From: Desulfobacterales bacterium | GTDB taxonomy: Bacteria; Desulfobacterota; Desulfobacteria; Desulfobacterales; JAHDSC01 | Direction: 5' to 3' | Assembly (NCBI GenBank): GCA_018432925.1 | Contig: JAHDSC010000062.1 | Location: 1 to 64,000 of the forward strand | DNA length: 64,000 nucleotides | Notes under the pieces: model-generated | The model's input: the letters and a program-made list of their open reading frames with translations, nothing else | Databases searched by the model: none | Told to the model about the DNA's origin: nothing | Program-made: the position numbers and the translations under genes | In this document: piece by piece, positions 35,742 through 54,599 of the stretch | Position numbering within the stretch: the first letter of the stretch is position 1 | How the letters are laid out: every line of letters starts with the position of its first letter

Positions 35742-35780
35742 GAAAAAAGCCGGGTCACCTTTAACTTCGGCAACCCGGCT
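35742..35780 (-). terminator. Riboswitch expression-platform terminator
   Basis: A perfect 8-bp stem: minus-strand AGCCGGGT (35780-35773) pairs with ACCCGGCT (35755-35748) and is followed by TTTTTC. The 5' arm lies inside the c-di-GMP aptamer, so aptamer and terminator are mutually exclusive. The autotransporter start is about 75 bases further on. Confidence 0.85.
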
Positions 35781-35841
35781 GTCTGCTTCCAGACCCATGG
35801 CTTTCCGTCCCACCCTCGCGGATGGTTTGGTTTTATCGAAG
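35765..35841 (-). ncRNA. c-di-GMP-I (GEMM) riboswitch
   Basis: Read on the minus strand, the aptamer has a closing stem CTTCG (35841-35837)/CGAAG (35769-35765), then AAACCATCC with a GCGA tetraloop and GGGTGGGACGGAAAGCC. A second hairpin GGGTCT/AGAC follows, then CCGGGTTGCCGAAG. This is the GEMM-I layout, including the GNRA loop and the GGGAC-AAAGCC joining segment. One base differs from the common form (GGACGG where GGACGC is usual). Ligand binding should keep the terminator at 35742-35780 from forming, so c-di-GMP is predicted to switch the autotransporter on. Confidence 0.88.
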
Positions 35842-44036: not shown

Positions 44037-47000
44037 GTGTTCTCCAGGTTTTTTATTGATCGACCGATCTTCGCCACCGTTATTTCGATCCTCATCTGCC
44101 TTGCGGGAATCGTCTCCATGACCGCTCTGCCGGTCGAACAGTATCCGACGATTACACCCGTGCAGGTTACGGTATCGGCGGTATATCCCGGTGCCGATTC
44201 CCAGACCCTTGCCGATTCCGTTGCAGCGCCGATCGAAGCACAGATCAACGGCGTGGACAACATGCTCTATATGACTTCGACGAGTTCCTCGAACGGACAA
44301 TTGATGCTCACCGTCTATTTTACGCTGGATACCGATCCGGACATCGCACAGATGCAGGTCCAGAACCGTGTCAATCTCTCCCAGCCTCAGTTGCCCGAAG
44401 CCGTGGTTCAACAGGGTGTTTCCGTACAGAAAAAGGCCTCGTCCATCATGATGCTGATCGGGATCTTTGCGGAGGCGGAGCGATACAGCAGTGAATATAT
44501 TGCGAATTACGCAAATGTCTATGTCCTTGATGCAATCAAGCGGGTGCCGGGTGCCGGCCAGGCCCAAATCATGGGGATCGCCGATCAGGCAATGCGCATC
44601 TGGATGGACCCGGACCGGATGGCTTCTCTGGGAATCACCACCAGCGACATTCAGCAGGCCGTTCGAAGTCAAAATGCCATGTACGGAACCGGGCAGATCG
44701 GGCAGGAGCCAACGTCCGGACCCGTAGAGTTGACGATTCCGGTGGTCCCGCAGAGGCCGTTTACCGAACCGTCGCAGTACGAAAATATCATTTTGCGATC
44801 GAACCCCGACGGCAGCGGGATTGTTCGATTAAAGGATGTGGCGCGTGCCGATGTGGGTCTGAAACAATATGTGACCGAAAGCAAGTTGAACGGCAGTCCC
44901 GCGACCTTTATTGCGGTTTACCAGCAGCCGGGGGCAAATGGACTCGATGTATCGAAGGCCGTACGCAAGACTCTTGAAGAGATGAAGCCCTATTTTCCCA
45001 GCGGCCTGGACTACATGATCTCCCTCGACACCAATGACTTCGTACGGCTATCGATCAAAGAGGTGGTTCACACTTTGTTTGAGGCGATCCTGCTCGTCAT
45101 ATTGGTTGTCTACATCTTTCTTCAAAGCTTCCGCACCACCATCATCTGCTCCGTTGCCGTCGTGGTCGCCCTCGTCAGCACATTTACGGGGATGCTTGCG
45201 TTGGGTTTTTCCATCAACCTTCTCACCCTCTTCGGTCTGGTTCTTGCGATCGGAATGGTGGTGGACGACGCTATCGTTGTGGTTGAAAATGTTGAACGCA
45301 ACATGGTCCGATTTCATCTGGTTCCAAAAGATGCCACGATCCGGGCCATGGGGGAGATCTCCGGTTCCCTCGTCGCGGTCGTGCTGGTGATGGCTTCGGT
45401 TTTCATCCCCGCCGCATTTCTGCCCGGCACCACGGGCCAGCTTTACAAACAGTTTGCGATCACCATCGTTATTTCGGTAGCGGTCTCCGGATTCGTGGCC
45501 CTTACCCTTACACCCGCCATGTGCGGGGTTTTTCTGAAACACGCCACGGCTCCCACGCACGGAATTTTCGCCTGGTTCAATCGTCAGGTCGATGCCGTCA
45601 CCCGTGGCTTTGGTCACGCCGTAACGTTCGTCATCAAACGGATGATAATCGCCTTCCTCGTCCTGGCCGTCCTTGCCTGGGCGATCATCCATCTCTTCCG
45701 CGTCATTCCGGCAAGCTTTGTTCCCAACGAGGATCAAGGATATGTCATGGCAGCGATCATCATGCCGGACGGCGCAAGTCTCAACCGCACCGGGGTTGTT
45801 TCCGATCGTGTGGAAGGTTTCTTCAAAAACATTCCCGGCGTTGAAACCCGCACCCAGATCACGGGCTACAGTCTGCTCGACAGCGGATACAAAACGAATG
45901 CGGGGACATTTTTCGTGACGCTCAAACCCTTTGAGGAGCGCTATTCCTCGGGAAAAAAGGCACGAACGGAAAACGCCCGGGCTGTGTTGGCCGAACTGAA
46001 CAAGGAGGCAAGGGGGATACGGGAAAGTCTGGTGATTCCCATGGCGCCGCCTCCGATCCCGGGGATCGGAACAACCGGCGGTTTTGAATTCTGGATCCAG
46101 GATACCGAGGCGGGTAAACCTGCCGGATTGGAGGAGATTACCCGTCAATTCCTCCGCAAGGCTCGCCTGCGTCCGGAACTTGCCGGTTTGAATACCACGT
46201 TCCGGGCAACCACCCAGCAGTTGAGCGCGGAAGTGAACCGCGAAAAGGCCGATCTTCTCGGCGTATCGGTTCAGGATATCTACAGCACCATTCAGGCGCA
46301 GTTCGGGTCTCTCACGGTCAGCCAGTTTAACGAATTCAGCAGAGTCTGGTGGGTGATTCTACAGTCCGAACCGAAATACCGTCAAGACCCCGGGGATCCG
46401 GCGCGCCTGTACACGAGATCGAACCGGGGCGAAATGGTCCCTCTCTCCGCTCTTGTCACCACCCGATGGGTGACGGGACCGGATCTTCTCCCGCATTTCA
46501 ATGGCTTCCCCGCCGCCAAGATAAACGGGAACGCCGCTTTCGGATACAGCTCCGGCCAGGCGATTACGGCCATGGAAGAAGTTGCGAAGGAAGTTCTTCC
46601 GAAAGGTTACACCTATGCGTGGTCCGGACTCGCCTTCGAGGAAAAAATATCCGGAGGAACCTCCATGTCGGCGTTCGTATTCGGCCTCATCATCGTCTTT
46701 CTCGTGCTTGCCGCGCAATATGAATCATGGACCCTGCCGGGTTCCGTGATGATGGCGGTTCCCTTCGGAGTTCTGGGCGCCCTGACGGCCAACTGGCTGC
46801 GGGGTCTCGAAAACGACGTCTACTTCCAGATCGGTCTTCTCGTTCTGATCGGTCTGGGAGCAAAAAACGCGATTCTGAGGGTTTCCTTCGCCGTTGAACT
46901 GCGCAGAGAGGGCAAGTCGATCATGGATGCCACGATCGAGGCGGGCGAACAAAGGTTGCGACCGATCCTCATGACCTCCCTTGCTTTCGCCTTCGGCGTA

Positions 47001-47243
47001 CTGCCCCTGGCATTGGCCATGGGTGCGGGCGCCAACGCCCGGCATTCCATCGGAACCGGGATCATCGGCGGCATGATCGGAGAGACCACCTTGGCCATGC
47101 TCTATGTACCGCTGCTGTTCTACCTCTTTGACCGTATGACCGAACGATCCATTGCGAAGAAAGAAGCAACCCCCGGTGACAAAATCCCCGCGGAAAAAGG
47201 GATGGAACAAAATGTTCGGTCCGGACACACGGAGGACGGATGA
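44037..47243 (+). CDS. RND multidrug efflux permease (HAE1/AcrB type)
   Basis: A 1,068-residue proton-driven inner-membrane pump. It starts with GTG 44037, preceded by AAAGGAGAC. The first helix is FIDRPIFATVISILICLAGI. The proton-relay acidic pair is in GMVVDDAIVVVENVERN (TM4), and the relay Lys is in GLGAKNAIL (TM10). Two large periplasmic loops each carry porter and docking subdomains, for example the drug-pocket loop PGAGQAQIMG. The C-terminal end is Lys/Glu-rich and cytoplasmic. Its stop lies one base before the next start. HAE1 pumps export hydrophobic or amphiphilic compounds; the substrate cannot be told from sequence. Confidence 0.96.
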   Translation: MFSRFFIDRPIFATVISILICLAGIVSMTALPVEQYPTITPVQVTVSAVYPGADSQTLADSVAAPIEAQINGVDNMLYMTSTSSSNGQLMLTVYFTLDTDPDIAQMQVQNRVNLSQPQLPEAVVQQGVSVQKKASSIMMLIGIFAEAERYSSEYIANYANVYVLDAIKRVPGAGQAQIMGIADQAMRIWMDPDRMASLGITTSDIQQAVRSQNAMYGTGQIGQEPTSGPVELTIPVVPQRPFTEPSQYENIILRSNPDGSGIVRLKDVARADVGLKQYVTESKLNGSPATFIAVYQQPGANGLDVSKAVRKTLEEMKPYFPSGLDYMISLDTNDFVRLSIKEVVHTLFEAILLVILVVYIFLQSFRTTIICSVAVVVALVSTFTGMLALGFSINLLTLFGLVLAIGMVVDDAIVVVENVERNMVRFHLVPKDATIRAMGEISGSLVAVVLVMASVFIPAAFLPGTTGQLYKQFAITIVISVAVSGFVALTLTPAMCGVFLKHATAPTHGIFAWFNRQVDAVTRGFGHAVTFVIKRMIIAFLVLAVLAWAIIHLFRVIPASFVPNEDQGYVMAAIIMPDGASLNRTGVVSDRVEGFFKNIPGVETRTQITGYSLLDSGYKTNAGTFFVTLKPFEERYSSGKKARTENARAVLAELNKEARGIRESLVIPMAPPPIPGIGTTGGFEFWIQDTEAGKPAGLEEITRQFLRKARLRPELAGLNTTFRATTQQLSAEVNREKADLLGVSVQDIYSTIQAQFGSLTVSQFNEFSRVWWVILQSEPKYRQDPGDPARLYTRSNRGEMVPLSALVTTRWVTGPDLLPHFNGFPAAKINGNAAFGYSSGQAITAMEEVAKEVLPKGYTYAWSGLAFEEKISGGTSMSAFVFGLIIVFLVLAAQYESWTLPGSVMMAVPFGVLGALTANWLRGLENDVYFQIGLLVLIGLGAKNAILRVSFAVELRREGKSIMDATIEAGEQRLRPILMTSLAFAFGVLPLALAMGAGANARHSIGTGIIGGMIGETTLAMLYVPLLFYLFDRMTERSIAKKEATPGDKIPAEKGMEQNVRSGHTEDG

Positions 47244-47244
47244 C

Positions 47245-48726
47245 ATGCGCTCCCTTGTGGTCCTGACATTCGTTGCATTGCTCGGAGGCTGCATGGTCGG
47301 CCCCGATTACGCGCGACCGGATTTCGATCTGCCGGCCGCCTTCCAGTACAAGGATGCGGAGGCCCGGGAGACCGCCGATATCGACTGGTGGGAACAGTTT
47401 CAGGATCCGATGCTCGATCGACTGATCACCGAAGCCCTCTCCAACAACCGGAATATCGGGATCGCCGCCGCGAACATCGAACAGGCCGCTGGAGTGCTCA
47501 TGCAGGCCCGCTCCCCGCTCTTTCCCCAGGCAGGATACAGCGGAACCGGAGCAAGAGAGCGCGCAAGCGAGGCTGAAGACTCACTGTTTTCTTCGATCCT
47601 GTCGAATCCCCGGAATTCATACCAGGCATTTGCCGGCGCGAGCTGGGAGATCGACCTGTGGGGCCGCATCCGACGGCTTTCCGAGTCGGCCCAGGCCGAA
47701 CTGTCGGCAACCGAAGAGGCATGGCGCGGGGTGATTCTCTCCCTCGTGTCTTCCGTGGCCTCCAATTACATCCAACTCCTTGGCCTCGACGAACAGCTCC
47801 GGATATCCGAAGAGACCCTCGCGACCTACGCGGAGTCGGTCAAACTCTTCGATCTTCGCTTCCAGTATGGACAGGTGTCCCAGATGACCCTTGAACAGGC
47901 CCGTTCCCGGTACGAAACAGCGGCGGCGGCGATCCCGCAGATCGAATCTCAGATTGCACAGGTCGAAAATTCCCTTTCGATCCTGCTCGCTCGAAATCCG
48001 GAGCCTGTCGAGCGCGGAAAAACGATTCATCAATTGCACCTTCCCCCGGTCCCCCCGGATCTTCCATCCGATCTTCTCGTAAACCGCCCGGATATACGAC
48101 AGGCGGAACAGAATCTCATCTCTGCCAACGCCCGGATCGGAGCGGTCAAGGCTCTCTACTTCCCCACGATTTCCCTGACCGGGGCCTTTGGATTTGCGAG
48201 CATGGAACTTCATAACCTCTTCGAGAGGCCTTCCCGTGCCTGGAATTACGCCGGTTCGATAACCGGACCGATCTTTACCGGAGGAGCAATCCACGGCCAG
48301 GTGAAACAGGCCGAGGCAATCCGGAAGGCGGCGCTCCTGAACTATGCGCAGACCGTTCAGAACTCTTTCGCCGACGTAGAAAACGCCCTGGTTGCCCGGA
48401 AAAAGCTTGTTGAGCAGATCCGGGCACAGGAACGGCTTGTGAAGGCAAACAGGGAATATGTACGCCTTGCCCGGCTCCAGTATGAAGGGGGATATCTGCC
48501 CTATTCAACGGTGCTTCAGGCCGAACAGCAGCTTTTTCCTTCCGAACTCGATTATTCCCGCTACCGGACCTCGCTTTTCATTTCACTGGTCAATATCTAT
48601 AAGGCCATGGGTGGCGGATGGATAACGGAGGCGGAACGATTGACCCTTCAGAAAGGAACAAACGAGGATACCGGCCGGGTCCATTTTTTGACGACACCAC
48701 CCGCGTCCAATGAATCCATTCATTGA
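47245..48726 (+). CDS. Outer-membrane efflux lipoprotein (NodT/OprM family)
   Basis: A 493-residue TolC-like outer-membrane channel completing the tripartite pump. The lipobox LLGGC gives lipid-modified Cys16, followed by MVGPDYARPDFDLP, the standard family opening. Two repeats of long helices and barrel strands follow, with LLVNRPDIRQAEQNLISANARIGAVKALYFPTISLTG (about 275-320) as the signature. The start ATG 47245 is set by GGAGG inside the end of the pump gene. The operon ends here; the next gene is convergent and no strong terminator was seen between 48,727 and 48,953. Confidence 0.93.
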   Translation: MRSLVVLTFVALLGGCMVGPDYARPDFDLPAAFQYKDAEARETADIDWWEQFQDPMLDRLITEALSNNRNIGIAAANIEQAAGVLMQARSPLFPQAGYSGTGARERASEAEDSLFSSILSNPRNSYQAFAGASWEIDLWGRIRRLSESAQAELSATEEAWRGVILSLVSSVASNYIQLLGLDEQLRISEETLATYAESVKLFDLRFQYGQVSQMTLEQARSRYETAAAAIPQIESQIAQVENSLSILLARNPEPVERGKTIHQLHLPPVPPDLPSDLLVNRPDIRQAEQNLISANARIGAVKALYFPTISLTGAFGFASMELHNLFERPSRAWNYAGSITGPIFTGGAIHGQVKQAEAIRKAALLNYAQTVQNSFADVENALVARKKLVEQIRAQERLVKANREYVRLARLQYEGGYLPYSTVLQAEQQLFPSELDYSRYRTSLFISLVNIYKAMGGGWITEAERLTLQKGTNEDTGRVHFLTTPPASNESIH

Positions 48727-48953: not shown

Positions 48954-51638
48954 TCATGCCGGTGAAGAACTGTGTCTCGACCTCTTGATTACCTTTTCGA
49001 TTTCCACCGCCAGAAATACGACGGTTGAAAGCAGAATCGTAATGACAAATTCTCCGGCGGTGAGCGGTTCGGTCTTGAAAATGGGGTTCAAAAACGGCAC
49101 ATATATGGTGGCCATCTGAAGAACGAAGGTCAGCAAAACCGCCCCGAGAAGCGGTTTGTTGGACAAAACCCCCTGCCTGAAAAAAGATTCCTGTTCGGAT
49201 CGAATGGCCAGCACGTGCCCCATCTGACTCAAACAGAGAACGGTGAATACCATGGTTTGCCAGTGGGTCTGACTGCGGTCGATGAACAGGGCCTGGGTCA
49301 TGATGGAAACGGCTCCCATGAGCAGACCGACCCAGACGATGTGCCCGCCGAGACCTTTGGCGAAAATGCTTTCCTTCGGGTCCCTGGGAGAACGGCTCAT
49401 GATGTCTTTCTCCCCGGGCTCGGCGGCCAGGGCCAAACCGGGCAGACCGTCGGTCACCAGGTTGATCCACAGGATATGGATCGGCAGCAGCGGAATGGGC
49501 AGACCGAGGAATGGCGCCAGAAAAATGGTGAAGATCTCGCCTGAATTACTGGTCATGGTGTATTTGATGAACTTGCGAATGTTGTCAAAAATACGCCGGC
49601 CTTCCCGGACGGCCTTGACGATGGTGGCGAAATTGTCGTCCAGAAGAATCATGTGGGAAGCTTCCTTGGACACATCGGTTCCGGTAATCCCCATCGCCAC
49701 CCCGATATCCGCCCGTTTTAAAGCCGGCGCATCGTTGACCCCGTCCCCGGTCATCGCCACAAAATGCCCCTTATTCTGAAGCGCCTCAACGATCCTCAGC
49801 TTCTGTTCCGGGGCGACCCGGGCGTAGACCCGTATCCTTTCCACCCGGTGTTGGAATTCCTCCGGCGGAAGCTGGGCGAGCTCTCGACCGGTAATGACGG
49901 CCTTCCCATTCTCTCGAATAATCCCGACGCGTCTGGCAATCACCTCGGCTGTCAGCAGGTGATCTCCCGTAATCATCACCGGCCGGATACCCGCGGACCG
50001 GCATATGGCAACCGACTCCACCGCCTCCGGCCGGGGTGGGTCCATCATTCCGACCATCCCGATCAGTACCAGCCCTGTTTCCGCCTGTTCCGAAGTCAGC
50101 GGATCGGGAACCGCATCCCGGATCCGCATGGCGAACCCCAGGGTCCTCAGGCCGTCTCCGGCAATCCGATCGGCGGTCTCCAAGACTTTCGAACGGTCGA
50201 TTTCTTCCATGCCCTTGTGGAATAAGGTTTTTTCGGATCGCTCCAGAATTTCCTCAACCGCGCCCTTGGTGAAAGAAACGATCCGGCCGTTTTCCCAGGG
50301 ATGGAAAGTGGTCATGAGTTTTCGGTCCGAGTCAAACGGAATTTCGGCCAGCCTGGGGTATTTTTCATCCAGCCTCTCGCGGATATATCCTTTCTCTTGG
50401 GCCAGATCGAAAAGGGCCGTTTCGGTCGGATCGCCGATCACACCGCCGGAGGCATCCAGTCTGGCATCATTGCAAAGTGCCAGTGCAATCAGCAGCAGAT
50501 CGAAGGGCTCCCTGCCGGTCAGTGAACCATCCACGGCTTCCTCCCGGGTCGGGAGAGTCAATTCATCGGTCCGGTGCTGCCGCCCGCCTGCATAAACCTT
50601 TTCCACGGCCATGCGGTTCAAGGTCAATGTCCCGGTTTTGTCGGAGCAGATGTAGGTAACCGATCCGAGGGTCTCCACCGCCGGTAGCTTTCGGATCAAT
50701 GCCTGCTGCTTGACCAGCTTCTTGGCACCCAGAGCCAGTGAGATGGTAATAACGGCGGGAAGGGCCTCCGGAATCGCAGCCACCGCCAGAGAGATCGCTG
50801 TAAGAAGCATCAGGAGCGGAGGCTCTCCCCGAAGGAGACCGGCCAGAAAAACGATCACGCAGATGGCCAGAACCGCGTAAGCAAGCTTCTGCCCGAAAGA
50901 TGCAAGCCGTTTCTGAAGAGGAGTCCGCCCCTCATCCTGGTCCTGAAGCAGGGCGGCGATCCGTCCGAGTTCCGTCCGCATCCCGGTTTCCGCCACCAGG
51001 CCCTGACCTCGGCCGTAGGTGACCAGGGTTCCTTTATAGGCCATGTTTTTCCGGTCTCCGATGGCCGGGTCCGCTTCCGGAAGCGCCGCGCTGTCCTTCT
51101 CCACCGGCACGGATTCACCGGTCAACGCCGCTTCATCGATTCGAATCCGGACCGCTTCCGTCAGCCGGATATCGGCAGGCACCACGTTGCCGGCCTCAAG
51201 GATCACCAGGTCCCCGGGGACCAGCCGCTCGGCGTTCATCGATTCGGGCCGCCCGTCCCGGATAACGTTCGCCGAAGGGGCTGCCAGCTTCTTCAGGGCG
51301 GCCATGGCTTTTTCGGCCCGATATTCCTGGACGAAACCAAGAACGGCGTTCAACAGCACAATCACGGCGATGGCGATGGTGTCCGAAATCTCTCCGATCA
51401 CTCCGGCTACGATAGCGGCGGCGATCAGCACCAGGATCATGAAATCCTTGAACTGATCCAGAAACATCATCCATAAGGATTTGCGCTTCTTTTCGATCAG
51501 TTCGTTGGGGCCATAACGCTCGAAACGCCGGTGGGCCTCCTCGGAAGTAAGACCCGTGCCGGATGATCGCAGCTTCTCCGGAACCTCTTTTGGATCCAGC
51601 TGGTGCCATTTAATCGATCCGTTTCCCTTTGCACTCAT
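48954..51638 (-). CDS. P-type cation ATPase, Ca2+/Mn2+ type (P2A-like)
   Basis: An 894-residue P-type ATPase that pumps a divalent cation out of the cytoplasm. The actuator motif is TGES at about 173-176, the phosphorylation site DKTGT at about 333-337 and the hinge TGDGVNDAPALK. The TM4 metal site is AAIPEALPAVITI, TM5 has SNSGE, and TM6 has NLVTDGLPGLAL. This matches the SERCA/PMR1 arrangement (NLVTDGLP, N and E in TM5), so Ca2+ or Mn2+ is expected. It lies about 220 bases downstream of the Tim44-like gene, behind a yybP-ykoY Mn2+ riboswitch, so Mn2+ is the likelier signal. ATG 51638 is used; TTG 51647, closer to GGGAG, is possible. Confidence 0.9.
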   Translation of the reverse strand: MSAKGNGSIKWHQLDPKEVPEKLRSSGTGLTSEEAHRRFERYGPNELIEKKRKSLWMMFLDQFKDFMILVLIAAAIVAGVIGEISDTIAIAVIVLLNAVLGFVQEYRAEKAMAALKKLAAPSANVIRDGRPESMNAERLVPGDLVILEAGNVVPADIRLTEAVRIRIDEAALTGESVPVEKDSAALPEADPAIGDRKNMAYKGTLVTYGRGQGLVAETGMRTELGRIAALLQDQDEGRTPLQKRLASFGQKLAYAVLAICVIVFLAGLLRGEPPLLMLLTAISLAVAAIPEALPAVITISLALGAKKLVKQQALIRKLPAVETLGSVTYICSDKTGTLTLNRMAVEKVYAGGRQHRTDELTLPTREEAVDGSLTGREPFDLLLIALALCNDARLDASGGVIGDPTETALFDLAQEKGYIRERLDEKYPRLAEIPFDSDRKLMTTFHPWENGRIVSFTKGAVEEILERSEKTLFHKGMEEIDRSKVLETADRIAGDGLRTLGFAMRIRDAVPDPLTSEQAETGLVLIGMVGMMDPPRPEAVESVAICRSAGIRPVMITGDHLLTAEVIARRVGIIRENGKAVITGRELAQLPPEEFQHRVERIRVYARVAPEQKLRIVEALQNKGHFVAMTGDGVNDAPALKRADIGVAMGITGTDVSKEASHMILLDDNFATIVKAVREGRRIFDNIRKFIKYTMTSNSGEIFTIFLAPFLGLPIPLLPIHILWINLVTDGLPGLALAAEPGEKDIMSRSPRDPKESIFAKGLGGHIVWVGLLMGAVSIMTQALFIDRSQTHWQTMVFTVLCLSQMGHVLAIRSEQESFFRQGVLSNKPLLGAVLLTFVLQMATIYVPFLNPIFKTEPLTAGEFVITILLSTVVFLAVEIEKVIKRSRHSSSPA

Positions 51639-51860
51639 GGTTTTCAATGCTCTCCCTCAGACGGCCATAGGTCCCTCAAACAGGCGATCATGCGGCTGAA
51701 AAAATATGGGGCTTCAATCGGTGGATGCGCAAATATGTTTTTCCCGAGCTCGTCTTGTCGGTTTTTCAGACTCGACAAAAATATGTTTCCTTGCCGGAAG
51801 CCACCTATATGCGATCCGCGAAAATCCGCCGGAACCGGGACCTGAAGCAAAACGAGGCGT

Positions 51861-52724
51861 TTATTGCTCCACCTGCTGAATTCCCTCCAGTATCCAGAAG
51901 GATTCCGGGTTCGCCCGGTCCCGGCTGAAATGCCAAAGTTCACGGACTTGTTGGGTAAACTCGTCTTCATTTTCGCGCAGCAGAACATCGTAGAGTACCG
52001 AGGCGATGATTTGGCTGCCGGTGTCTCGTACCTCTAAAATGCTCGGGTTGATCCGCAGCAGCTCGGTTTTGCCGGGTACGGGATCATCCTCGGCCTGCTG
52101 TCGGATTTCGCTGAAGACTTCGGCTGAAGTAAACGAACGGATGTCATCGAGGTCCCGTTTGTCCCATGCACCCTGGAGTCGGACATAGATGGTATTGGTC
52201 CCTTTGAGAAACTCCTTCGCGTCGAACCCCGGCGGCAGAGACGGCTGCTGAAAGGCAGCAGCGGCTTCCTCCGTCGGTGTGTAGTTCGCACGACCCCATG
52301 CCTGGGCAGGGTCGCGTTCAAACCGCATGGCGTCTCCCTCGGATGACGATGCCGCAGTCACGCGTCGGGCGTGCAAAAACCGAAAAAGAAGAAAAAGACC
52401 GCCCCCCACCAGCAACAGGTCCGGCAATCCGATACCGCCGAACGCGCCGCCGAAAAGCAAGGAGCCGATCAGGCTGCCCATGAGCAATCCGCCCAGCATT
52501 CCTCCCCAGCGGCCTGCCGGCTGCCGGGCCGTCTGACCTGGTTTTGTCGAAGAGGCGGCAGAACCCTGCGAAGGAGACGGCGCGCTTCGCTGATAGCTCG
52601 GTTTGCTTCCGAAAAACCTACCTCGTCCCATACGAGCCGCCTCCGCCGTGTCATGCCATAAATAAAGCAGACAGAGTGTAAAGCTGAAAAACATCAGGAT
52701 GGAAAATCCGGTCTTTTTGTTCAT
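51861..52724 (-). CDS. Tim44-like domain membrane protein
   Basis: A 287-residue protein. An N-terminal signal/anchor (about 7-29) is followed by a Ser/Pro/Gln-rich low-complexity stretch (about 38-70). A Gly-rich hydrophobic region comes next (about 73-118, GGMLGGLLMGSLIGSLLFGG then LLLVGGGLFLLFRFL). The C-terminal Tim44-like domain (about 160-287, FLKGTNTIYVRLQGAWDKRDLDDIRSFTSAEVFSEI) resembles bacterial Tim44-family proteins of unknown role. It is the first gene behind the manganese riboswitch, with the P-type ATPase next, suggesting a partner role in metal stress or membrane maintenance. That link is inference. Confidence 0.8.
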   Translation of the reverse strand: MNKKTGFSILMFFSFTLCLLYLWHDTAEAARMGRGRFFGSKPSYQRSAPSPSQGSAASSTKPGQTARQPAGRWGGMLGGLLMGSLIGSLLFGGAFGGIGLPDLLLVGGGLFLLFRFLHARRVTAASSSEGDAMRFERDPAQAWGRANYTPTEEAAAAFQQPSLPPGFDAKEFLKGTNTIYVRLQGAWDKRDLDDIRSFTSAEVFSEIRQQAEDDPVPGKTELLRINPSILEVRDTGSQIIASVLYDVLLRENEDEFTQQVRELWHFSRDRANPESFWILEGIQQVEQ

Positions 52725-52792: not shown

Positions 52793-52840
52793 AAAAAAAA
52801 AGCCTTTATCCGCGGTACGGATGCGTACTGCCGATAAAGG
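52793..52840 (-). terminator. Expression-platform terminator of the Mn2+ riboswitch
   Basis: On the minus strand CCTTTATC (52840-52833) pairs with GATAAAGG (52810-52803), with an inner GTAC/GTAC pairing, followed by C and nine T's. The 5' arm CCTTTATC is also the 3' strand of the aptamer's closing stem, so the two structures exclude each other. Confidence 0.88.
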
Positions 52841-52950
52841 TCTTGCAATTTCGACACGATTGTCTCAACCCCGCATCCGGATGGCCGATACCATCGTGCT
52901 GACGAATCGCGGGCCGGCATGAAGAAATTGCCGGTGCTACTCCCCTGTAT
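52834..52950 (-). ncRNA. yybP-ykoY manganese riboswitch
   Basis: The minus-strand RNA has the class hallmarks in order. First is ACAGGGGAGTAGC (GGGGAGTAGC at 52945-52936), then a CCGGCA/TGCCGG hairpin. The second loop TCGTCAGCACGAT, a GGGGTTGAGAC segment and the closing CAAGACCTTTATC follow. Stem P1 pairs the segment before GGGGAG with CCTTTA. Mn2+ binding should hold P1 and prevent the terminator at 52793-52840, so it is an ON switch for the Tim44-like/P-type ATPase pair. Members of this class usually precede TerC, MntP or P-type ATPase genes. Confidence 0.85.
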
Positions 52951-52958
52951 TTGTCGCA

Positions 52959-52987
52959 AGATTATGAAAAGGCCCCTCGCCTGTCAA
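52959..52987 (-). promoter_or_regulatory. Sigma-70 promoter of the riboswitch transcript
   Basis: On the minus strand a perfect -35 TTGACA (52987-52982), 17 bases, then -10 TAATCT (52964-52959). The expected start of transcription falls at about 52,952, just before the aptamer, as a riboswitch leader requires. Confidence 0.75.
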
Positions 52988-53285: not shown

Positions 53286-54599
53286 TCAATCAACCGCCCC
53301 GAAGTCACTCGGCTCGGAAGGACTTCGGTCGATTTCGATGAGCACTTTGTCGATGCGGTTGCCGTCCATATCGACGACCTCGAAACGAGCGTCCCCGTGT
53401 ATGAAACTCGCGCCGGTCTCGGGTATTCTTCCCAGATTTTCCAGCACGAAACCCGCCAGCATCTTCACGTCCTTTCCCATGCCGATGCCCGTGACGGCTT
53501 CCACCTCGTCGGTCGGACACATCCCGTCGGCCAGCCACGATTCGTCATTTCTTTTCAAGATCCCTGGTCCGGGTTCTTCGCCCTGTTCCGGAAGGTCCCC
53601 GGCGATTGCCTCGATCACATCGGTAAGGGTTACAAGCCCTTCCGTTGCGCCATATTCATCCACCACGACGGCGAAATGAACTTTCTCCTTTTTAAAACGA
53701 TTGAGAAGTTTGAGGACCGATGTGCCCTCGGGAATGGAAAGCAGGGGCGTCATCCGCTCGGTAAGAATGATATCGGCGCAGCGCAGTGCCTCGGGAAGAA
53801 GATCCTTGGTGTGAACGACGCCGACGGGGCGATCCACTGTTCCGTCGCAGACAAGCAAGCGCGAAAAACGATTCGACTCGACCATATCCAGAATCGTGCT
53901 TCGGTCGGATTCGGCGTCGACCCAAACAATCCGGGAGCGCGGCGTCATGATAACCCGGACCGGTCGATCCGCCAGGCGGAGCACGCCTTGAATCATTACC
54001 TGTTCCTGCGGGAAAAAAACGCCCGATACCGTCCCCTCGGCAATCAGCGACTTGATCTCTTCCTCGGTTACGGATGTTTCCCGGGTACTCGGCAAACCCA
54101 ACGCGCTCAGCACCCTCTCGGTCGATACATGAAGCAACCATACCGCCGGAGCGGCGACCTGGGAGAGTCCCCGCATCGGCCCGGCTGCCAAACAGGCGAT
54201 CCGTTCCGGTTGGGCCAGCGCGATTCGCTTCGGCACGAGTTCACCCACGACCAGCGACAGGTACGTTATGCATACGACCATGACGCCGATACCCACGGCA
54301 ATGCCGTGCGGCGAAATCGAAGGAAACGTATTGAGCCATCCGCCGAGCCGCTGCCCCAGGGTCGCGCCGCTGAATGCACCGGCGAAGATGCCGACCAGCG
54401 TGATGCCGATCTGGACCGTGGAAAGGAACCGGCTCGGATCGTGGATGAGACGGAGAGCGGCCCTCGCGCCACGGCTGCCCTGTTTGGCCAGATCTTCGAG
54501 GCGGCTTTTCCGAGAGGATACGACGGCAAGTTCGGACATGGCGAGCAATCCGTTGATCAGGGTCAGAAGGACGACGGCAAGTATTTCAAGATACAGCAT
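53286..54599 (-). CDS. CNNM/CorC-type membrane protein with CBS domains (HlyC/CorC family)
   Basis: A 437-residue protein. An N-terminal DUF21/CNNM transmembrane domain (about 1-195, several hydrophobic helices starting LEILAVVLLTLINGLLAMSELAVV) leads to a CBS-domain pair (about 205-330, containing PRSRIVWVDAESDR and VVVDEYGATEGLVTLTDVIEAI). A C-terminal CorC_HlyC domain (about 350-430) follows. The family is linked to Mg2+/Co2+ homeostasis; older haemolysin names are misleading. It lies upstream of the Mn2+-riboswitch unit on the same strand but is separated by that unit's own promoter. Confidence 0.88.
   Translation of the reverse strand: MLYLEILAVVLLTLINGLLAMSELAVVSSRKSRLEDLAKQGSRGARAALRLIHDPSRFLSTVQIGITLVGIFAGAFSGATLGQRLGGWLNTFPSISPHGIAVGIGVMVVCITYLSLVVGELVPKRIALAQPERIACLAAGPMRGLSQVAAPAVWLLHVSTERVLSALGLPSTRETSVTEEEIKSLIAEGTVSGVFFPQEQVMIQGVLRLADRPVRVIMTPRSRIVWVDAESDRSTILDMVESNRFSRLLVCDGTVDRPVGVVHTKDLLPEALRCADIILTERMTPLLSIPEGTSVLKLLNRFKKEKVHFAVVVDEYGATEGLVTLTDVIEAIAGDLPEQGEEPGPGILKRNDESWLADGMCPTDEVEAVTGIGMGKDVKMLAGFVLENLGRIPETGASFIHGDARFEVVDMDGNRIDKVLIEIDRSPSEPSDFGAVD

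Follow-up and report, generated by a model that had tools for sequence, protein, structure and literature searches.

Tim44-like genes recur behind a divergent Mn2+-type riboswitch in the Desulfobacterota

Introduction

Why would a gene for a Tim44-domain protein be the first gene of a unit that also encodes a P-type cation ATPase and that is preceded by an apparent Mn2+ riboswitch? This arrangement is found on the minus strand of a contig from a Desulfobacterales bacterium (GenBank assembly GCA_018432925.1, contig JAHDSC010000062.1, positions 1 to 64,000; we refer to this whole stretch of 64,000 nucleotides as the window). The bacterium belongs to the Desulfobacterota, a phylum of mostly sulfate-reducing bacteria. 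Tim44 works at the mitochondrial import channel, and its fold relative mL45 works on the side of the ribosome that faces the membrane. We know of no clear role for bacterial Tim44-domain proteins outside of the TimA line. The original prediction for this locus, which was made from the DNA sequence, was that the ATPase exports Mn2+ and that the Tim44-domain protein is a candidate partner of this pump. Here we report that, within this phylum, Tim44-like genes are linked to Mn2+-type riboswitches far above chance, and that their partner looks like a whole Mn2+ regulon instead of the pump alone.

Results

A divergent riboswitch of the Mn2+ class

The RNA leader in front of the Tim44-like gene (Table 1) contains the letters of the yybP-ykoY class (GGGGAGUAGC, CGUCA, and GCAAGACCUUUAUC), including L1 GGGGAGUAGC and L3 CGUCA, which we take to be the core of this class. 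It also has a closing stem, a junction, and two coaxial legs with covariation; the closing stem has one C-U mismatch in the window. Across 13 leaders, including the window's, the consensus has 28 pairs, and 15 of these show compensatory changes. The 5' arm of the intrinsic terminator has CCUUUAUC in common with the closing stem of the aptamer. The promoter-like TTGACA is placed alike, 42-45 nucleotides 5' of GGGGAGTAG, in the window and in four relatives (L054, L057, L064, and L065). A scan for consensus promoters did not list this site, because its spacing or its -10 box falls outside of the scan's rule.

The Rfam model for this class (RF00080) was too insensitive to use as a detector. A 601-nucleotide scan of the leader against Rfam at E ≤ 1 gave no match to RF00080 and only a match to an unrelated microRNA family (E = 0.97); a search of the bacterium's own whole genome with RF00080 at E ≤ 10 gave no match; and RF00080 was above its cut-off in only 5 of 297 genomes of the phylum. 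We replaced it with a sequence pattern, GGGGAGTAGCN{65,95}GCNAGACCTT, and with the models R1 and R2. Because alignment A5 includes the window, R1 is not an independent test, so we used R2, a covariance model that was built from 33 homologous leaders (alignment A6, 33 rows) with the window left out. R2 finds the window's leader with 69.8 bits (E = 2.2e-16 in 64 kb). In 395 genomes of the phylum, the pattern has 30 matches (in 28 genomes), versus one match for a backward-read control, and R2 has 60 matches (in 51 genomes). The matches to R2 include one in G173 at 41 bits as well as the sites in G210 and G302, both of which are above the RF00080 cut-off. The set is thereby connected to the known Mn2+ class, and the window's leader is a homolog of accepted members.

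Judging by its architecture, the window's riboswitch is a real member of the Mn2+ class, as was originally predicted; it lies just outside of the region that the prediction covered (48954-52724). By analogy to this class, we infer that the leader binds Mn2+ and switches expression on. In one relative of the locus (L053, 6797-6980), the leader has decayed: the promoter and the terminator are retained and the aptamer core is gone, in front of a Tim44 gene that is 59% identical to the window's.

Linkage of Tim44-like genes to the riboswitch

A profile for Tim44-like proteins (A4) has matches in 97 of the 395 genomes. After merging two hits from one gene of G382, we had 105 places to compare: 98 with flanks of at most 7 kb to either side (often shortened by the end of a contig), the window, and six others. 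At 11 of these 105 places, from six families, a riboswitch lies within 7 kb (the window, G224, G333 twice, G191, G363, G474, G301, G244, G445, and G104). The Tim44-like gene is downstream of the riboswitch and on the same strand in 10 of the 11; in G104 the two are divergent. We left a weak match to R2 (L185, E = 0.32) out of the counts. Three genomes from one genus (G201, G279, and G419) have a match to R2 about 29 kb from the Tim44 gene, which we did not count as linked.

We had first noticed four rows of A6 (L054, L057, L064, and L065) for their position ahead of Tim44, and for this reason we based the estimate of chance on hits of the pattern only. Seven of the 30 pattern-found riboswitches are within 7 kb of a Tim44-like gene, versus 0.086 expected (P = 1.3e-12, with rounded genome sizes and uniform placement). 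As three of the linked genomes are from one genus, we also counted by genus, and 5 of 19 are linked (P = 9e-9).

Relatives of the window's Tim44-like protein are also found at 27 loci in named genomes, including Desulfobacterales and Desulfovibrio. Four of the 27 contain GGGGAGTAG, always immediately ahead of Tim44: L054 (Desulfobacterales BIN27), L057 (an uncultured Desulfatitalea), and L064 and L065 (two metagenome-assembled genomes of Desulfovibrio). Tim44 stands directly behind the riboswitch in the window, in these four relatives, and in three more genomes.

Which genes are under the riboswitch?

We classified the genes near riboswitches by their similarity to reference proteins, and we checked 20 proteins from related loci with Pfam. 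In the scanned examples, Pfam confirms TerC, GDT1, UPF0182, the zinc ribbon, the M48 peptidase, and Bax1-I; we take the M48 peptidase hits to be HtpX and the Bax1-I hits to be YccA. The first gene behind the 30 pattern-found riboswitches is HtpX in 8 cases, a TerC family member in 6, and Tim44 in 4 (the window, G301, G363, and G474); two are unclassed.

Gene order varies among the linked places. G474 and G301 have riboswitch-Tim44-TerC, and L054 has riboswitch-Tim44-YccA-CNNM-ZIP. Tim44 is further down in G244 (riboswitch-HtpX-TerC-Tim44), in G333 (riboswitch-TerC-AI2E-GDT1-Tim44), and behind a pattern-found riboswitch of G191 (riboswitch-ZnR-TerC-UPF0182-Tim44, where ZnR is a zinc-ribbon protein and a small open reading frame comes first). 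In G224 the order is riboswitch-ZnR-ATPase-Tim44-CNNM; this ATPase is 68% identical to the window's, and the CNNM gene is 44% identical to the CNNM/CBS gene of the window. An N-terminal module without the Tim44 domain (Tim44N) is found in G445 (riboswitch-Tim44N-UPF0182) and in a second cluster of G333 (riboswitch-HtpX-Tim44N-ZnR-TerC-YccA). Both GDT1 and TerC are established Mn2+ handlers (for TerC, see PMC10550928).

Several other members of these clusters recur. HtpX, a M48 membrane protease, is first at L085, L086, L090, L091, L094, L095, L096, and L098 (the 8 cases above), and also at L187 and L254; a literature search for HtpX with riboswitch and manganese found no report of HtpX behind Mn2+-type riboswitches. 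The small zinc-ribbon protein recurs in clusters with the Mn2+ riboswitch or TerC (L140:1883-2137, which matches PF13453; L142:8785-9285; L179:8072-8320; L225:11125-11316; and L254:6603-6893). The membrane protein UPF0182 (PF03699) is in riboswitch clusters at L142:5022-7694 (checked with Pfam), L154:3673-6351, and L248:4198-6945.

The Tim44-like protein

The first gene of the unit does encode a Tim44-domain protein with a Gly-rich membrane region, as had been proposed. It matches PF04280 with E = 3.9e-15 (56.7 bits, versus a curated cut-off of 29.6). A structure predicted by AlphaFold2 from a 12-row alignment has a mean predicted local distance difference test score of 67.7, and the blocks from residue 161 onwards average 82-97. 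Foldseek's top match for this fold in PDB is the C-terminal domain of human Tim44 (2cw9, E = 2.4e-4), followed by chains of mL45, so the domain resembles mitochondrial Tim44 and mL45 both by profile and by predicted fold. Unlike those proteins and bacterial TimA, it has a Gly-rich membrane module and is encoded in a Mn2+ unit, and it scores far under the cut-offs of the TimA models (21.2 bits versus 200 for NF033778 and 26.3 versus 80 for NF033779).

The two proteins that correspond to the N-terminal module only (L248:6992-7465 in G445 and L254:6974-7423 in G333; 149-157 amino acids) have a signal-like helix, a Gly/Ser stretch, and a Gly-rich membrane region, and both are behind a riboswitch. 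A Pfam scan of the short protein from L254 gave no match. At 3 of 20 loci scanned, genes for a tRNA and for the bacterial small signal recognition particle (SRP) RNA are directly 5' of the Tim44-like gene (L062:543-743, L063:2090-2289, and L074:6566-6766). This fits an export setting but may be due to chance.

The ATPase, and whether Tim44 is its partner

The ATPase has five P2-ATPase Pfam domains and the makeup of a P2A cation ATPase (E1-E2, cation N- and C-terminal domains, and the HAD domain). Its best NCBIfam models are PMR1-type TIGR01522 (740.5 bits, cut-off 798.3) and SERCA-type TIGR01116 (671.9 bits, cut-off 703.4), and by these scores it is intermediate between the two types and below both equivalog cut-offs. 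Its nearest relatives with solved structures, over nearly the full length, are the Ca2+/Mn2+ ATPases LMCA1 (lmo0841, E = 6e-202) and SPCA1 (E = 1.5e-168). The motifs that were listed for a SERCA/PMR1-like pump (PEALP, SNSGE, and NLVTDGLP) are present; the M5 motif SNSGE corresponds to GNLGA in LMCA1 and to STSIA in SPCA1. We agree that PEALP, SNSGE, and NLVTDG alone do not separate Ca2+ from Mn2+. At 9 of the 29 other pattern-found riboswitches of the phylum, a homolog of the ATPase (47-77% identity) is encoded no more than about 1.5 kb downstream. Because of this recurrence, the window's ATPase is probably a Mn2+-responsive pump, which supports the argument that was first made from the riboswitch.

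The claim that Tim44 is a specific partner of this pump now appears weak. The suggested neighborhood survey of Tim44 genes found that adjacency to the riboswitch recurs (the 11 of 105 places above), whereas adjacency to the pump is rare: an orthologous pump (at least 64% identity) is within 7 kb of Tim44 at 3 of the 105 places (the window, G224, and G104), and a distant P-type ATPase (32-36% identity) is near Tim44 at three more. By comparison, a TerC-family gene is within 7 kb at 7 places. The pump was also not found in the available flanks of the 27 named loci. So Tim44 and this pump are not conserved as a pair; what recurs in six families is Tim44 within the Mn2+ riboswitch regulon, and the partner of Tim44 looks like this regulon as a whole (TerC, GDT1, HtpX, YccA, and the pump).

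Layout of the locus

On the minus strand, the CNNM/CBS gene is followed by the promoter-like site, the RNA leader, the Tim44-like gene, and the ATPase gene (Table 1). A scan of the minus strand of the gap between the last two genes found no terminator-like or promoter-like sites, so it is plausible that they are on one transcript. The CNNM/CBS gene is a possible but unproven member of the neighborhood. A resistance-nodulation-division (RND)/outer-membrane efflux pair is convergent to the ATPase gene. The only match to Rfam at the gathering score in the window is a c-di-GMP-I-GGC riboswitch.

Table 1. Features of the locus, with coordinates in the window
Feature	Coordinates	Strand	Details
CNNM/CBS/CorC_HlyC gene directly upstream of the unit	53286..54599	-	Pfam
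Promoter-like site	52959..52987	-	TTGACA at 52987-52982 and a weak -10 (CATAAT with spacing 15, or TAATCT with spacing 17)
Divergent yybP-ykoY-type (Mn2+) riboswitch aptamer	52833..52951	-	L1 GGGGAGUAGC, L3 CGUCA, closing stem AUACAGG/CCUUUAU
Intrinsic terminator	52793..52841	-	Stem 52841-52802, then nine T; -22.2 kcal/mol, z -4.8
Tim44-like protein, 287 amino acids	51861..52724	-	Hydrophobic helix at the N terminus, then a basic Gly/Ser stretch, a Gly-rich hydrophobic region, and a C-terminal Tim44 domain
Gap from Tim44 stop to ATPase ATG, 222 nucleotides	51639..51860	-	Purine-rich GAGGGAGAG ahead of the ATPase start
P2A-type cation ATPase, between PMR1-type and SERCA-type	48954..51638	-	Start ATG 51638 (alternative TTG 51647); Pfam, NCBIfam, relatives with structures
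RND/outer-membrane efflux pair	44037..48726	+
c-di-GMP-I-GGC riboswitch	35765..35840	-	64.4 bits

Discussion

With moderate confidence, we propose that this locus is a Mn2+-overload unit in which the riboswitch switches on both genes and the Tim44-like protein acts as an inner-membrane adaptor in the same response. The transcript would start with the divergent riboswitch. At high Mn2+, the closing stem of the aptamer would keep CCUUUAU, and the terminator, which needs the same bases, would not form. To go by this anatomy and the known class, read-through would then transcribe Tim44 and, next, the ATPase. Based on its homology and the recurrent place of its relatives behind riboswitches, the ATPase would export Mn2+, and possibly Ca2+ as well, and so lower the Mn2+ of the cell. 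The Tim44-like protein would be a membrane-anchored member of this response and most likely serves as an adaptor beside HtpX, YccA, and exporters or metallochaperones of the TerC type, where it may help with the metalation or clearance of membrane and secreted proteins under Mn2+ stress. This role is suggested by the company of TerC, HtpX, and YccA together with the export-site roles of the fold relatives Tim44 and mL45, and an adaptor at the export site would be the simplest joint reading of the two.

Parts of this arrangement have precedents. In Streptococcus, a yybP-ykoY Mn2+ riboswitch reportedly precedes mgtA, a Mn2+/Ca2+ P-type ATPase. The window resembles such pairs of RF00080 and a P-type ATPase in the letters of the aptamer core, the architecture of the legs, the overlap with the terminator, and the P2A ATPase in the unit, but it has a Tim44 gene first and its sequence is too divergent for the Rfam model. 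In Bacillus subtilis, the TerC proteins MeeF and MeeY copurify with SecY, SecDF, FtsH, and HtpX and serve in the metalation of exported proteins (PMC10550928). The likeness lies in a Mn2+-linked TerC with HtpX and envelope quality control; however, the accessible part of that paper names no Tim44-like protein, and the link that we describe is genomic only. A more ambitious version of our proposal, which we put forward as a doubtful idea, is that these Tim44-like proteins are a Mn2+-induced branch of export and quality control: at high Mn2+, an assembly with TerC, HtpX, and YccA would metalate or clear proteins at the Sec translocon, as a riboswitch-switched counterpart of mitochondrial Tim44 at the import channel, and the Gly-rich module (which occurs alone at L248 and L254) would dock to the membrane complex.

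Several results weigh against our proposal. RF00080 has no match in the window at its gathering score, which is a detection threshold and not a biological trait. The aptamer by itself does not have the canonical fold as its minimum-energy form (z -1.7). At 94 of the 105 Tim44 places, there is no riboswitch in the examined flank. The nearest orthologs from the window's order, in G030 and G089, have neither the riboswitch nor the pump, which rules out that the nearest relatives share the unit; in G030, the gene 5' of Tim44 resembles coaBC. Finally, in 185 gammaproteobacterial genomes there are 14 matches to RF00080 and 28 to Tim44, and none are linked, although RF00080 may miss riboswitches there; R2 matched none of five gamma-type genomes. 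A linkage that is general across bacteria was thus not seen in this sample.

The many places without a riboswitch would fit with a different explanation, that the Tim44-like protein has a general, metal-independent role in protein insertion or lipid work and came under Mn2+ control solely through the envelope damage that metal stress causes, with no part in Mn2+ handling. The genes for tRNA and SRP RNA before Tim44 at L062, L063, and L074 and the company of HtpX and YccA could be explained in the same way. The repeated linkage with the dedicated Mn2+ handlers TerC and GDT1 argues otherwise, and we consider this explanation rather unlikely. It is less likely still that Tim44 is a dedicated accessory subunit that attaches to the P2A pump within the membrane and modulates the export of Mn2+: the two genes are adjacent in the window and in the riboswitch cluster of G224, and they are within 7 kb of each other, in divergent orientation, in G104, but the orthologous pump is near Tim44 at only those three places, most units with a riboswitch and an ATPase have no Tim44 nearby, and Tim44 is as often with TerC. 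A third alternative is that the leader, as a relative of yybP-ykoY, has decayed or has a different ligand and does not respond to Mn2+. This would agree with the lack of a match to RF00080, the mismatch in the closing stem, and the loss of the aptamer core at L053, but it is very improbable given the score from an independent model (R2), the sister elements that precede TerC and GDT1, and the fact that the letters of L1 and L3, the covariation, and the terminator are all intact.

In literature searches that paired Tim44 with yybP-ykoY, riboswitch, or TerC, we found no paper on a link between Tim44 and a Mn2+ riboswitch. Riboswitch regulons, including those of Desulfovibrionales, were reconstructed in PMC3766115; a word search of its main text found neither Tim44 nor HtpX, and an earlier listing in its supplements is possible.

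For our proposal of a Mn2+-overload unit, these results put the riboswitch and the tie between Tim44 and Mn2+ on firmer ground than the original prediction could. Tim44 would be a new kind of gene in a known Mn2+ regulon, and its link to protein export is a bold suggestion. The Rfam model misses many riboswitches of this class in the phylum, and the presence of HtpX among their targets fits with a coupling of Mn2+ homeostasis to protein export. The linkage ties a little-studied family of bacterial Tim44-like proteins to manganese handling, and the repeated occurrence of Tim44 behind riboswitches of the Mn2+ class, alongside TerC, GDT1, and a P2A pump, offers this family a physiological setting that can be tested.

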